Assembly (NCBI GenBank): GCA_021160245.1
Contig: JAGHCW010000124.1
Coordinates: forward strand, 1-5,744
Length of the DNA: 5,744 bases
Direction of reading: 5' to 3'
Origin: a bacterium
GTDB lineage: Bacteria > B130-G9
In this document: positions 1 through 5,744 of the stretch, piece after piece
How positions within the stretch are numbered: position 1 is the stretch's first letter
Layout of the letters: every line of letters begins with the position of its first letter
The notes under the pieces: generated by a model
The model's input: the letters and a program-made list of their open reading frames with translations, nothing else
Told to the model about the DNA's origin: nothing
Database searches by the model: none
Translations under genes and position numbers: made by a program

Positions 1-2742
1 ATCTATCTGAAGAGATACGGGCCTCTTGTTCAATAGGTCCTCATAGACGCGAGCCTGCTCGCCGGAAAGCGCTTTCTTGGCCGCCGGCAACATCGCCCCG
101 AGCCTCGGCCCAACCTGCCGCAGGTTAAACCTCACAGAGGGCTCCGCAATGCCGTCTAGCGAGGTGACAACATCCACGCTTTTGACGTTCAGCTCCTCAA
201 GCAGGTCTCCCATGAAGCGATGCAGGCTGTCCTTCTGCTCCGGAGCCTCCAGCCTAACGAGAAGCCGGCCAAGTGGCTGTCGAACCTTGATCCCGGCCTT
301 GTTTCGAGCCGCGAGGCCGAGGCTTACGACTCGCTTCGCTAGTGCCACGCTCTCCTCGAGCTCCTGGTCGATCAAACTCTCATCCACGGTCGGGAAATCG
401 CAGAGATGAACGCTCTCGGGGCCATCGGGATGAACGCTTACTACAAGCTTGTGGTACATCTCCTCAGCCATGAACGGAATGATCGGCGCGACGATCTTCG
501 CTATGTTCACTAGCACGGTGTACAACGTCTGATAGGCCGCCTGCTTGTCCTCGTCCGAGCTTGCGCGCCAGAAACGCCGCCGATTGCGCCGGATATACCA
601 ATTAGACAGGTCATCAAAGAACGCCTCGACGTGTTTGATAACGCGCATCGCGCTGTATTCTTCATATTCCCGCGTAACGTTCCCGATGACGGTGTGAAGC
701 CGCGACAGAATCCATCGGTCAAGCTCGGTCAGTCCGTCAGTCGAGTCGCCATCCAGCACAACGCTCGGCTGGTCGAGGCTCGCATACGTCAAAAAGAAAG
801 TATAGGCGTTCCAAAATGTCAGCAGCTTGCGCTTGATCTGCCTCGCCGGCCCATATCCAAAATTGAGGTTAAAAGCGTTGTTGTGCGACGAGAAGAGCCA
901 ACGCATGATGTCCGCGCCCATCTTCTCGACCGCATCGTCAAACCATATAACGTTGTGACTGCTCTTGTGCATCGAATCGCCGTGCTCATCAGCGACTTTC
1001 TCGTAGATCAGGACCTTCTGATACGGCGCCCGACCCTCCAATGTTACGCTCATAAACATCATGGAGTAAAACCACAGGCGTATCTGCTCCCGCATCTCCG
1101 AGATAAATTCGGCCGGGAACCACCTCTCCCAGTATTCGCGGTCCTCGTTGTATTTGAGCGTGGAATAGGGAACGATGCCGGCGTCGAGCCAACAGTCCCC
1201 AACATCCTCCGTTCTTATCGCCTCGCCGCCGCATTCTTCGCACTTGATTCTGACTTTATCGATCCAGGGCCGATGTAGCTCGGGAAGGTCATCAACCGAA
1301 AGAGACGCGCGCTCCGCCAACTCCTCACGGGAGCCGACGATCGTTATGTGCCCACAGCTTTCGCAGTAGTAGAACGGCAGAGGAAGGCCCCAGAACCGGC
1401 GCCTCGAGATGCACCAATCCTGCATGTTGTTCAGCCAGTCCTCCATCCGCTTGCCCATGTAGTCCGGCATCCAGGTTACTTTGCGCGACGCCTCAATCAA
1501 CGGCTCCCTCAACTGACCGCATTTGATGAACCACTCGTCCACGAGGCGGAAAATGAGCTCGTCGTTGCATCGCCAGCAGACGGGGTATCTATGCACGAGC
1601 GTCTTAACCTCGAAGAGATAGCCCTTCTCTCGAAGAGACTGATAGACGAGGCGGGCAACCTCAGTTACGAGCTTGCCGGAGAACTCGCCAAAATCGTTAG
1701 TATAACGGCAGGTGTCGTCCACAGGATTTACGATGCCGATGCCCTCACGCTTATGTATCTCAAAGTCATCGGCGCCGCAGCCGGGAGCCACATGGAGCAC
1801 TCCCGTGCCCTCCGTCTCGCCGACCATCTCGGCGCAGATAACCCTGTGGTCAATCTCCCTCTGCGCCGGTAGCTCCTCAAATGGACTGCGGTACTTCAGC
1901 CCCTTGAACTCCTTCCCGATGTGCTCGGAAATGACGCGGGCGCCGGGCAAAACGCTCTCAAGCGTTCCCTTTGATAGAATGAGGGTCTTGCCGTCGTGCT
2001 CTGCCTTCACGTAAATCAGGTCCGGGTTCACAGCCAGGGCGGTGTTCGCGGCGAGCGTCCAGGGGGTAGTTGTCCAAACCATGAAGTACTCGTTATCACG
2101 CCCGACAATGGGAAGCTGCAGAAAGACCGATGGATGCTGAATCTCACGATACGAGTCGGCCATCTCGTGCTGCGAGAGCGAGGTTCCGCATCTTAGACAC
2201 CACGGCATGATGTGCCGCCCGCGATAGAGCCAACCGTTCTCATAACAGCGCTTGATGAACATCCAGATATACTCGATGTTCGTGTCTGTCATCGTGTAGT
2301 AGCTGTTGTCCCAGTCCATCCACTGCCCGAGTCGCCTCGACTGCGCGCTGATTACAGAGGCGTATTTCAGCACACGCTCCTTGCACTTTTGGGAGAACTT
2401 ATCCAGCCCATACTCCCGGATGTCGGCCTTGCAGTTTAGGCCCAGGTATTTTTCCACCTCGACCTCAACCCAAAGCCCCTGACAGTCGAAGCCGTTCTGG
2501 TAGCGCTGGTGGAATCCCTGCATCGACTTGTAGCGAACGAATATGTCCTTATAGGTACGGCCCCAAGCGTGGTGGACGCCCATCTTATTGTTCGCCGTCA
2601 TCGGCCCGTCGATGAACGAGAAGACCTTGCCGTCTTGGTTCTTCTGCACAAGTTGCTGGAAGGTTTTGTGCTCCTCCCAGAACTTCAAAATCCTAAGCTC
2701 GAGCTCCTGCTGATCGTAGTTGGACACCACCTTCTCAAACAT
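1..2742 (-). CDS. ileS: Isoleucyl-tRNA synthetase (3' end outside the window)
   Basis: This cytoplasmic class I synthetase charges tRNA-Ile with isoleucine using ATP. The frame is intact from ATG 2742 to the left edge, giving 914 residues. Family members of this type run somewhat over 1,000 residues, so only the C-terminal tail is missing. The HIGH-type motif reads GVHHAWG (residues 55-61) and the KMSKS-type loop reads MHKSS (591-595). The CP1 editing domain shows WTTTPWTLAANT from residue 223 and HVAPGCGADD ending at D325-D326. CxxC pairs lie at 182/185, 389/392, 460/463 and 501/504, matching the two zinc sites known in Thermus-type IleRS. DCWLDAG precedes the second half of the catalytic domain. 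NWYIRRNRRRFW (714-725) marks the anticodon-binding domain. AGGAG at 2750-2754 lies 7 nt before the ATG and supports this start. The GVHHAWG and MHKSS variants fit a divergent IleRS subgroup rather than ValRS or LeuRS. No T-box leader was seen. Confidence 0.97.
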   Translation of the reverse strand, partial: MFEKVVSNYDQQELELRILKFWEEHKTFQQLVQKNQDGKVFSFIDGPMTANNKMGVHHAWGRTYKDIFVRYKSMQGFHQRYQNGFDCQGLWVEVEVEKYLGLNCKADIREYGLDKFSQKCKERVLKYASVISAQSRRLGQWMDWDNSYYTMTDTNIEYIWMFIKRCYENGWLYRGRHIMPWCLRCGTSLSQHEMADSYREIQHPSVFLQLPIVGRDNEYFMVWTTTPWTLAANTALAVNPDLIYVKAEHDGKTLILSKGTLESVLPGARVISEHIGKEFKGLKYRSPFEELPAQREIDHRVICAEMVGETEGTGVLHVAPGCGADDFEIHKREGIGIVNPVDDTCRYTNDFGEFSGKLVTEVARLVYQSLREKGYLFEVKTLVHRYPVCWRCNDELIFRLVDEWFIKCGQLREPLIEASRKVTWMPDYMGKRMEDWLNNMQDWCISRRRFWGLPLPFYYCESCGHITIVGSREELAERASLSVDDLPELHRPWIDKVRIKCEECGGEAIRTEDVGDCWLDAGIVPYSTLKYNEDREYWERWFPAEFISEMREQIRLWFYSMMFMSVTLEGRAPYQKVLIYEKVADEHGDSMHKSSHNVIWFDDAVEKMGADIMRWLFSSHNNAFNLNFGYGPARQIKRKLLTFWNAYTFFLTYASLDQPSVVLDGDSTDGLTELDRWILSRLHTVIGNVTREYEEYSAMRVIKHVEAFFDDLSNWYIRRNRRRFWRASSDEDKQAAYQTLYTVLVNIAKIVAPIIPFMAEEMYHKLVVSVHPDGPESVHLCDFPTVDESLIDQELEESVALAKRVVSLGLAARNKAGIKVRQPLGRLLVRLEAPEQKDSLHRFMGDLLEELNVKSVDVVTSLDGIAEPSVRFNLRQVGPRLGAMLPAAKKALSGEQARVYEDLLNKRPVSLQID

Positions 2743-2823
2743 CAATTCTCTCCTAGAATGCTAATATAAGCTCGCAGCCTCTGCCGCCCAAAACTCCAAA
2801 CCGCGACATCTTAGGCTTCAGAG

Positions 2824-3080: not shown

Positions 3081-3109
3081 TTGACATCGCGTTCTTGAGG
3101 CACTAGATT
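3081..3109 (+). promoter_or_regulatory. Sigma70-like promoter for the cysteine-rich/propeller genes
   Basis: A perfect -35 hexamer TTGACA (3081-3086) is followed after 17 bases by TAGATT (3104-3109), which matches the -10 consensus at four of six positions. The predicted start near 3116 lies about 355 nt before the start codon at 3471. This is the best plus-strand promoter seen upstream of these genes and implies a long 5' leader. An ATG at 3112 would fall at or before the transcription start, which argues against a gene beginning there. Confidence 0.55.
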
Positions 3110-3159
3110 ATATGTACCCGAATTGCGGTGGAGAGTTGAGGTACCGGCATGTTCATCGT

Positions 3160-3200
3160 AGATGTTGCGCTAGTATTTTCGAATGCTACAAGATGTTGCG
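3160..3200 (+). repeat. 10-bp direct repeat flanking a UUCG hairpin
   Basis: The decamer AGATGTTGCG occurs at 3160-3169 and again at 3191-3200, 31 bp apart, close to three turns of B-DNA. Between the copies lies TAGTATT (3171-3177), TTCG (3178-3181), AATGCTA (3182-3188). This folds as a 7-bp stem, with one G-U wobble in RNA, closed by a UUCG tetraloop. The second copy runs directly into the G10 tract. The unit lies about 45-85 nt after the predicted transcription start, so it could act as a repeated protein site or as an RNA structure in the leader. No known riboswitch family was recognised. Confidence 0.5.
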
Positions 3201-3209
3201 GGGGGGGGG
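3200..3209 (+). repeat. Homopolymeric G10 tract
   Basis: Ten consecutive G residues lie in the leader, about 260 bases before the start of the cysteine-rich gene. Such tracts are prone to slipped-strand length change in cells and also to length error in sequencing. It lies inside a weak open frame (3149-3442), where a one-base change would alter that frame. Whether it is functional cannot be told from one sequence. Confidence 0.9.
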
Positions 3210-3386
3210 TAGCGCAGTGCTATCTTTTCTTGTCCGGCATAGCCTCCTCCTTCGCACGAGCTGCGCAGCGCAAGCCGGCGACGGTGGACCCAACTGGACG
3301 AGGCCCCCGTGCGCGCACCACCATAAGTTCACCTTGGCTGGTCCCGTTTTGGAAAAAGCCGACCAAGAGGTTTTATCCCCTCGGCC

Positions 3387-3416
3387 GGCGAGGCAGAGCG
3401 CCCGAAGGCGCTCGCC
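3387..3416 (+). other. GC-rich hairpin in the leader, two competing folds
   Basis: GAGCGCC (3396-3402) and GGCGCTC (3407-3413) form a perfect 7-bp stem around the tetraloop CGAA. An alternative pairing, GGCGAG (3387-3392) with CTCGCC (3411-3416), uses part of the same 3' arm, so the two are mutually exclusive. The structure lies 55-84 nt before the start codon at 3471. No U-run follows, so it is not a typical intrinsic terminator. It may shape translation or stability of the downstream message. Confidence 0.45.
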
Positions 3417-3458
3417 AAACAGCCAATATCAACTATCGATAACAATGCAGAAAAAGAT

Positions 3459-3463
3459 GAGGT
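3459..3463 (+). promoter_or_regulatory. Shine-Dalgarno site for ATG 3471
   Basis: GAGGT lies 7 nt before the ATG at 3471, an ideal spacing. The TTG at 3508, which opens the frame of the cysteine-rich protein body, has no comparable site. This shows that translation is meant to begin at 3471, although that frame then diverges from the protein body. Confidence 0.7.
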
Positions 3464-3470
3464 AAGTCAA

Positions 3471-3513
3471 ATGAATAAGAGATCTTTCGTGATAATGTCA
3501 ATATCTATTGCTA
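3471..3513 (+). other. Displaced signal-peptide start of the cysteine-rich protein (frame-split)
   Basis: ATG 3471 with its Shine-Dalgarno site encodes MNKRSFVIMSISIA, a basic n-region followed by a hydrophobic core. After codon GCT (3510-3512) the frame turns Arg-rich (RRRNRG) and ends at TAA 3624-3626 after 51 codons. Skipping one base, for example A3513, joins it to GAGIVAYVWASG in the frame that runs to 3882. This restores a normal signal peptide ending near ASG-CC and a 136-residue product. The frames could be joined anywhere from 3496 to 3624, but signal-peptide continuity favours about 3510-3514. A sequencing or assembly error, a true inactivating mutation or +1 frameshifting would all look like this. 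Confidence 0.65.
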
Positions 3514-3882
3514 GGCGCCGGAATCGTGGCCTATGTTTGGGCAAGCGGTTGTTGCCCGGGCGGAGGCCCTGGAGAGACTCCGTGCATATGCGATGGCCAG
3601 GCGATTCAGGTGGGCTCCAGCTGTAATTGGACGTTCAGTGTCCATCATAGTCGTGAGTGCGGCACAGACCACGACGTCTCTCTGAAGATCAGTACTGGTG
3701 GGAATCCCTACACATCGTTCTTGATGACACGAATGTCGTCTTCTCCATATCCTGTCTGCATGCTGTACCAGAAGACGTTGACGCTAAGCTCCAATACCAC
3801 ATACGACTATTACTTCGAGTGCCCCGATTGCGCTGAAACGTGCTGTGCGGGATACATCAACACAGGGAGTTGCGGCGACTAA
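3508..3882 (+). CDS. Small cysteine-rich secreted protein, family not recognised
   Basis: As an uninterrupted frame this runs from TTG 3508 to TAA 3882 (124 codons), but TTG 3508 lacks a Shine-Dalgarno site. The real start is probably ATG 3471 in another frame, which would give 136 residues. Using TTG as residue 1, the N-terminal segment to WASG is the rest of a signal peptide. Cleavage before C15-C16 is plausible, and ASGC is only a loose lipobox. The mature part has 12 cysteines (15, 16, 26, 28, 39, 51, 84, 105, 108, 112, 113, 122), many in close pairs such as CPDC and TCC. It also has alternating strand-like stretches (WTFSV, TLTLSS, YDYYFEC). This pattern suggests a disulphide-stabilised beta domain outside the cytoplasm; a metal-binding role is possible but less likely. 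The propeller gene follows 76 nt later on the same strand, so co-expression is likely. I know no matching family. Confidence 0.65.
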   Translation: MLGAGIVAYVWASGCCPGGGPGETPCICDGQAIQVGSSCNWTFSVHHSRECGTDHDVSLKISTGGNPYTSFLMTRMSSSPYPVCMLYQKTLTLSSNTTYDYYFECPDCAETCCAGYINTGSCGD

Positions 3883-3958: not shown

Positions 3959-5744
3959 ATGAGAATGATTGTGCTTTTTGTAGCTATGGCGTTTCTAGTG
4001 TGCTCCTGCGCTTGGGCACAGGATTTCACTCATTATTATAACCGCTTTAGCGGCGGCGGTCAGGCGGTCGTGGATTCGCACGGCGCCGTTTGGTATCAGC
4101 TCGGGTCGCAGATGATAGGATTCGATCCGGCGGCGGATATGACAACGGTGTTGCGGTTGCCCTTTTCGGGCGATGCGAGCATTGCACTTGGTGCTGAAGA
4201 TGCTGTCTGGGTGTATTACAGTAACATCTGGCGAATTCGTGACGGACAGATGCAGGTGTTCATGCTCCCGACCGGCACCGGCAAGGCGCTTGCCACTTCC
4301 CCGGATGGAACAGTTTGGGTCGGCAAGTTGAAGACTCAGACTCAAGAATATGTTCTGCTCCGATACGAGAATGGAGCTTGGGAGGAGGTGGATAACTACC
4401 CATCCTCGAGAACGCCGAGGGGAATGTGCTTCGAGCTGGACGGGACCGGTTGGTTCGGGCTAAAGGAAGGCCTGGCCAAGTACGATCAGGGAGAATGGAC
4501 GGTTTTTGATTACGACTTGTCCGATTTGAGCGATATGATCGTGTCCTCGCAAGGCGAGGTTTGGGTAAGCCAGGGCTGGAGACAACATATTCAGGTCTTT
4601 GAGGATGGCGAGTTCATTCGCGAATATAAGATGTCCGACGGTCTTGCCGGGGCATACCCTGGACCCATGGCCGAAGATACAGCCGGCAACATCTGGGTCG
4701 TGGACTCCCCCATTTCCCGTGGCGCCGGTGTCTCGATGTTTGATGGCGAGTCGTGGCATGCCTACAATACACTGAACAGCGGTCTGCCGTCCAACGTAGT
4801 CTCCGACGTGGCAGCTTCGCCCGACGGGGCCGTGTACTTCACAACCGCGTGCGGGCTTGCCCGCCACAAGAATGGCCTTTGGAACACATTTAGCGGTGGC
4901 GATAACTGCATCGTGAACAATGACGTGTGGTCCGTCGCTGTAAATGCCCTGGGCCGGGCGTTCTATGGGACCTGCTATGACCAGATTGGCTACTACGACG
5001 GTGCAAGTTGGAGTCAACTTAACAACCCGGCCGGCGGGCTGTCCACGATCTGCGACATCTGTTTCGGTGCCGATGAGTCAGTGTGGATTGCGTCCAACAA
5101 TGACCTCAGAGTCTGGCATGGTTCGATGATCAGCTACAGAAGGGCAGGGACGGGAGGTATCAACCTGGACAACACGAAGGCCGTCTGCCTCGATGATCGC
5201 GGTAGAATATGGGCCTGTTCAGGAGGTGATTACGGTGGCGTCGCCTGTTATGATTCAGGTTCCTGGATGTCCTGGGCGGTTGGGGACTTAGAGCCGGAGC
5301 CTCGCTGCATTGCTTGTGATGGGGACGGCAGGATATGGGTCGGCACGGAAAAGGGCATCGCGGTATTCCAAGACGAGACGTTGGTTGATTGGTACCCTGA
5401 GTATGGCTACACAAGCGCAATTGCCTGCGACCAGGACGGCTTTCTCTGGATAGGTTTCGATCGCAGTCGGATGGGCCTCCTCCAGTTTGACGGTGAGAAT
5501 GAGCTGGCCTGGTACTCGATGGACGATGGCCTTCCGTCGAATTGGATCAAATGCCTCGAGTGCGACGCCGGGAACAACATCTGGGTGGGGACGGGCGATG
5601 GCCTCGCGAAATTCGACCGGACCGAGTGGACGATGTGGGACATCGACAACGGCATCCCGGTGAACGAGATACGAGACATCTCGACCGCGCCGAACGGCGA
5701 TATCTGGTTTGCGACCCCAGCCGGCCTCTTGTGCCTCGAATCGG
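3959..5744 (+). CDS. Exported multi-blade beta-propeller protein, Reg_prop-like (3' end outside the window)
   Basis: The frame is open from ATG 3959 to the right edge (595 full codons). Residues 1-20 form a signal peptide with hydrophobic core IVLFVAMAFLV and cleavage expected after AWA (A20/Q21). The rest is a tandem array with strand motifs such as IWVGT, VWIAS and LWIGF, each followed by GL-type turns and a YDxxxW-like strand. The core aromatic recurs at residues 45, 84, 120, 165, 202, 246, 293, 336, 376, 418, 460, 497, 542 and 583, about every 41 residues, giving 14 repeats, enough for two seven-bladed propellers. GLPSN-type loops (275-279, 524-528, 565-569) are typical of two-component regulator propeller repeats (Reg_prop). 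Such repeats occur in periplasmic sensors of hybrid two-component systems and in secreted proteins. No kinase, anchoring or sorting domain is visible because the C-terminus is missing. Cysteines are unusually frequent for this repeat type, especially from residue about 295 on. Confidence 0.88.
   Translation, partial: MRMIVLFVAMAFLVCSCAWAQDFTHYYNRFSGGGQAVVDSHGAVWYQLGSQMIGFDPAADMTTVLRLPFSGDASIALGAEDAVWVYYSNIWRIRDGQMQVFMLPTGTGKALATSPDGTVWVGKLKTQTQEYVLLRYENGAWEEVDNYPSSRTPRGMCFELDGTGWFGLKEGLAKYDQGEWTVFDYDLSDLSDMIVSSQGEVWVSQGWRQHIQVFEDGEFIREYKMSDGLAGAYPGPMAEDTAGNIWVVDSPISRGAGVSMFDGESWHAYNTLNSGLPSNVVSDVAASPDGAVYFTTACGLARHKNGLWNTFSGGDNCIVNNDVWSVAVNALGRAFYGTCYDQIGYYDGASWSQLNNPAGGLSTICDICFGADESVWIASNNDLRVWHGSMISYRRAGTGGINLDNTKAVCLDDRGRIWACSGGDYGGVACYDSGSWMSWAVGDLEPEPRCIACDGDGRIWVGTEKGIAVFQDETLVDWYPEYGYTSAIACDQDGFLWIGFDRSRMGLLQFDGENELAWYSMDDGLPSNWIKCLECDAGNNIWVGTGDGLAKFDRTEWTMWDIDNGIPVNEIRDISTAPNGDIWFATPAGLLCLES

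Follow-up and report, generated by a model that had tools for sequence, protein, structure and literature searches.

A two-base gap splits the signal-peptide frame of a cysteine-rich protein gene in one copy of a duplicated bacterial operon

Results

Organization of the locus

The window, by which we mean the whole 5,744-nucleotide stretch of DNA analyzed here, opens with ileS, a gene for isoleucyl-tRNA synthetase that reads away from the remaining genes as one intact frame and is still open at the window edge (Table 1); the name is that given in the preliminary description and fits the sequence. On the other strand follow a sigma-70-like promoter, a leader, a gene for a putatively secreted Cys-rich protein whose reading frame is broken within the signal peptide, and an intact gene for a secreted beta-propeller protein of the Reg_prop type. 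The latter matched Pfam PF07494 with an E value of 2e-25 (86 bits against a cutoff of 20.4), a test made on the window copy, while the propeller proteins of the other operons discussed below were assigned by sequence similarity. The propeller frame continues beyond the window into contig C172 (positions 1-461) by way of an exact 99-base overlap that covers window positions 5646-5744.

Table 1. Features of the window, with positions counted from its first letter.
Feature	Position	Strand	Basis
ileS (isoleucyl-tRNA synthetase), divergent neighbor	1..2745	-	ORF list; name from the preliminary description, fits sequence
Sigma-70-like promoter (TTGACA, 17 nt, TAGATT)	3081..3109	+	sequence, alignments
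Leader	3110..3470	+	alignments to operon copies
Hairpin GCCGACCAAGAGG..CCCCTCGGCCGGC	3358..3389		pattern search, sequence
Shine-Dalgarno GAGGT	3459..3463	+	sequence; 7 nt spacing to ATG 3471
Signal peptide, first part, frame 0 (MNKRSFVIMS)	3471..3500	+	ORF list, relatives
Two-base difference from both intact relatives	3499..3505	+	DNA alignment
Signal peptide, second part, +1 frame (LLLGAGIVAYVWA)	3505..3543	+	alignment to paralogue
Cys-rich mature protein and stop, +1 frame, no known family	3544..3882	+	searches, relatives
Secreted Reg_prop beta-propeller protein, intact	3959..5744	+	ORF list, Pfam

A reading frame split within the signal peptide

Two overlapping open reading frames are listed downstream of the leader, one in frame 0 that starts with ATG (3471-3626, 51 aa) and one in the +1 frame that starts with TTG (3508-3882, 124 aa). 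The ATG with its ideally spaced GAGGT, recognized early on as the start of a signal peptide, was confirmed, and frame 0 indeed opens with a signal-peptide-like sequence, beyond which it is without homology up to its end. The +1 frame provides a signal-peptide-like continuation that leads into a Cys-rich stretch. This frame is closed by a TAA at 3493-3495 and is open from a TGT at 3496 to the stop at 3880-3882, in agreement with the more than 120 open codons described before, and any switch between the two frames must therefore lie within about 3496-3510. Codon usage, scanned along the frames, proved too noisy to place the switch point.

The open length by itself is weak evidence that the +1 frame is a gene. 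In first-order Markov simulations of the region, 17 of 5000 runs kept a 128-codon stretch open, but among the 128-codon stretches of the window itself 15% are open when any frame and strand is allowed and the real genes are counted.

Intact relatives and the two-base gap

Upon searching the window's own genome (G000, a draft assembly of 244 contigs) and 97 others at the protein level, we found two relatives of the +1 frame: a paralogue in the same genome, on contig C103 (E 6e-13, 38% identity), and one more copy, on contig C37 of G001, a genome that belongs to the same taxonomic family but to another genus (E 4e-21, 43% identity). Both are encoded in a single open frame from the conserved ATG, with 137 aa for the paralogue, which begins MTRKSLVIMSICLLLGAGFAAYVWA, and 134 aa for the G001 copy, which begins MSKRSLIVLSICLVVGAGIALYVWA. 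The N-terminus that the window holds in frame 0 is thus carried by both relatives within the one frame of the mature protein, which supports the proposed division of a signal peptide between two frames in the window, and the comparison with homologues that had been called for shows that the frame shift itself is not conserved. We take homology to these intact copies to be decisive for the +1 frame being the protein frame. The Shine-Dalgarno sequence and the ATG at 3471 are likewise conserved in the relatives, the paralogue having AGGAG with the same 7 nt spacing.

The Cys-rich protein matches no family model searched, with nothing above the cutoff in Pfam or NCBIfam and no match among PDB sequences. 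A profile search of 386 genomes found the family in G000 and G001 only, with no further members, and scans of the named genome contigs, with the single protein and then with the alignment, yielded no relatives. A single-sequence structure model reached a mean pLDDT of 40 and was unusable, and a literature search returned nothing relevant.

Between the ATG and the beginning of the mature part, the DNA alignment of the three copies has no gaps other than two bases missing from the assembled window sequence alone, which fall at about 3499-3505, within or next to the codon for a Cys common to both relatives. The exact missing bases are not assignable, several placements in the alignment being equally good. 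The preliminary description had put the mature protein one base out of frame near 3510-3514; the effect on the frame holds, while the size and position do not, as the window lacks two bases farther upstream. Past the gap, 8 of the 12 differences between the window and C103 in the signal-peptide region fall on third codon positions, an excess suggesting that the +1 frame was once under selection for its protein product. By these alignments, the +1 frame is the one that served as the protein frame until recently.

Initiation at TTG 3508, the first start codon of the open +1 frame, would leave the gene translated, giving a product of 124 aa whose signal sequence is truncated. We consider this very improbable, as no Shine-Dalgarno sequence was seen upstream of 3508, the conserved start signals of the relatives lie at ATG 3471 instead, and the product would be without the positively charged start and half of the hydrophobic core, both of which the relatives keep.

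A family of operons with a conserved leader

Judged from the alignments, the window locus is one of several paralogous operons, composed of the promoter, a conserved leader, the Cys-rich gene, and the gene for the secreted propeller protein. A -35 element of the TTGACA/TTGACG type is conserved in the other operon copies. The leader is 76-78% identical between the window and C103 (L033 6790-7125) and is also recognizable in three operons of G001 (L028 690-1000, L029 1890-2215, and L030 4120-4430), and its conservation exceeds that of the mature protein encoded downstream. As the leader is this similar to that of C103, whereas the mature protein is closer to G001 (43% versus 38%), the comparison suggests that leader and signal peptide have been homogenized between the two copies in G000.

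The leader is probably non-coding. We examined whether the ORF starting at ATG 3149 encodes a small protein and dismissed this reading, since differences among the copies show no third-position excess; most pairs have fewer differences at third positions than at positions 1 and 2. The consensus structure of the leader has 65 predicted pairs, 7 of them with a change on both sides, and a covariation term near zero, too little to establish RNA structure as the conserved element. The hairpin GCCGACC..GGCCGGC has six matches in G000 and G001, found only in leaders of this operon family and two of them in the leader on G001 C37; it is absent from the other two of the four genomes searched (G002 and G003), and a control with the reversed pattern gave zero matches. 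Read on the minus strand, the hairpin is followed by TTTTT and looks like an intrinsic terminator, which, if it acts as one, would stop antisense transcription. Neither Rfam nor tRNA scans matched anything in the window.

Some further differences were observed in and around the leader. A run of ten G at 3200-3209 corresponds to seven in the C103 copy, a difference of three. At 3302-3309, the window is without two further bases compared with the other four leader copies, which is the second two-base difference in the operon. In addition, contig C172 of G000 carries, past the end of the propeller gene that begins in the window, a 59-base segment (676-734, L014) matching part of the leader at 83% identity; the segment precedes a nucleotidyltransferase-like and HEPN-like gene pair, named by sequence impression only.

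Discussion

Loss, sequence error, and real frameshifting had been put forward as explanations of the split frame. Our comparison retains loss or error, with loss favored, and speaks against frameshifting, given that the relatives are in a single frame. Programmed +1 (or -2) ribosomal frameshifting would join the two halves of the protein, and it finds some encouragement in the presence of both signal-peptide halves, in the shortness of the switch region, and in the downstream RNA at 3505-3600, which folds mildly better than shuffles (z -1.9, with 9 of 200 shuffles as good). We nevertheless judge it highly unlikely, first because the two relatives that keep the gene use one frame and need no shift. 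The string GCT AGG C, which had been likened to the +1 sites of Ty elements, does not hold up as such a site: its frequency is at chance level, with 0.61 occurrences of this 7-mer expected in a shuffled window and one found, and the two-base gap lies 5-11 bases upstream of it. AGG was rightly described as not clearly rare, being an ordinary Arg codon here with 15 of the 1510 codons in ileS and the propeller gene (9.9 per 1000), third after CGC (25) and CGG (18). Furthermore, after a +1 slip an Ala-tRNA decoding GCU would be unable to pair again with CUA, which counts against frameshifting, and no prfB-like Shine-Dalgarno stimulator was seen by eye. Frameshifting of the prfB, Ty1, and Ty3 type has in common with the window that a +1 switch is needed for the full product. 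The window differs from these systems in that its switch is not conserved in relatives and has no matching shift site, with neither a rare codon nor a stop in the A-site.

We consider it likely that a recent two-base loss inactivated this copy of the Cys-rich gene while the rest of the operon stayed intact. Compared with the two intact relatives, the gene would have lost two bases in the region coding for the signal peptide; translation begun at ATG 3471 would then run out of frame and end at 3626, and thus the exported Cys-rich protein would not be made from the window copy. As the leader, the mature frame, and the downstream propeller gene are still intact, such a loss would be recent. A mature frame without a stop is also what is expected of a functional gene, and in this respect it counts against inactivation. 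The alignments show that the two bases are missing from the assembled sequence; that the change is real in the organism, and the gene silent, is our inference. The pattern resembles that of bacterial pseudogenes formed by small indels in paralogous families, with no notable difference: one copy is disrupted while a paralogue and a relative with the region in a single frame exist (C103 and G001 C37), the downstream frame has not yet decayed, and the neighboring genes are intact. Such frame-broken copies are commonplace among duplicated genes.

A sequence or assembly error is the main rival, according to which the gene would be intact in the organism and the consensus would be without two bases. 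Such an error is unlikely in our estimate, although it deserves weight: the genome is a draft in 244 contigs, the Cys-rich gene is otherwise undamaged, and its locus, part of a duplicated family, has overlapping contig ends nearby. Besides the 99-base overlap at the window's end, C103 has exact 127-base ends in common with C184 and C182, and the operon family is thus located at branch points of the assembly graph. The paralogue, however, is only about 77% identical here, so that k-mers of the two copies would hardly be confusable, the gap does not lie in a homopolymer, and the two long genes of the contig, ileS over 2.7 kb and the propeller gene over 1.8 kb, are free of frame breaks.

Read as a recent two-base loss, what might have been a recoding signal becomes an ordinary gene disruption. 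The comparison also reveals a small group of duplicated operons that share a conserved leader, together with a Cys-rich, putatively secreted protein that matches none of the family models searched. It is conceivable, albeit highly improbable, that the frame break is instead a tolerated on/off state of the Cys-rich gene in these duplicated operons with their unusually conserved leader, through a reversible small indel or low-level frameshifting. The Cys-rich gene is absent from two of the three operon copies in G001 and hence appears dispensable, while its propeller partner is kept. On G001 C164, the propeller gene follows directly after the leader. On G001 C58 (L028 1065-2990), the leader is followed by a propeller protein that starts with the signal-peptide residues of the Cys-rich family itself, MSKRSLIVLSIC, as would result from an in-frame deletion of the Cys-rich gene. 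Across the operons, the Cys-rich gene is intact in two, frame-broken in one, and missing from two.
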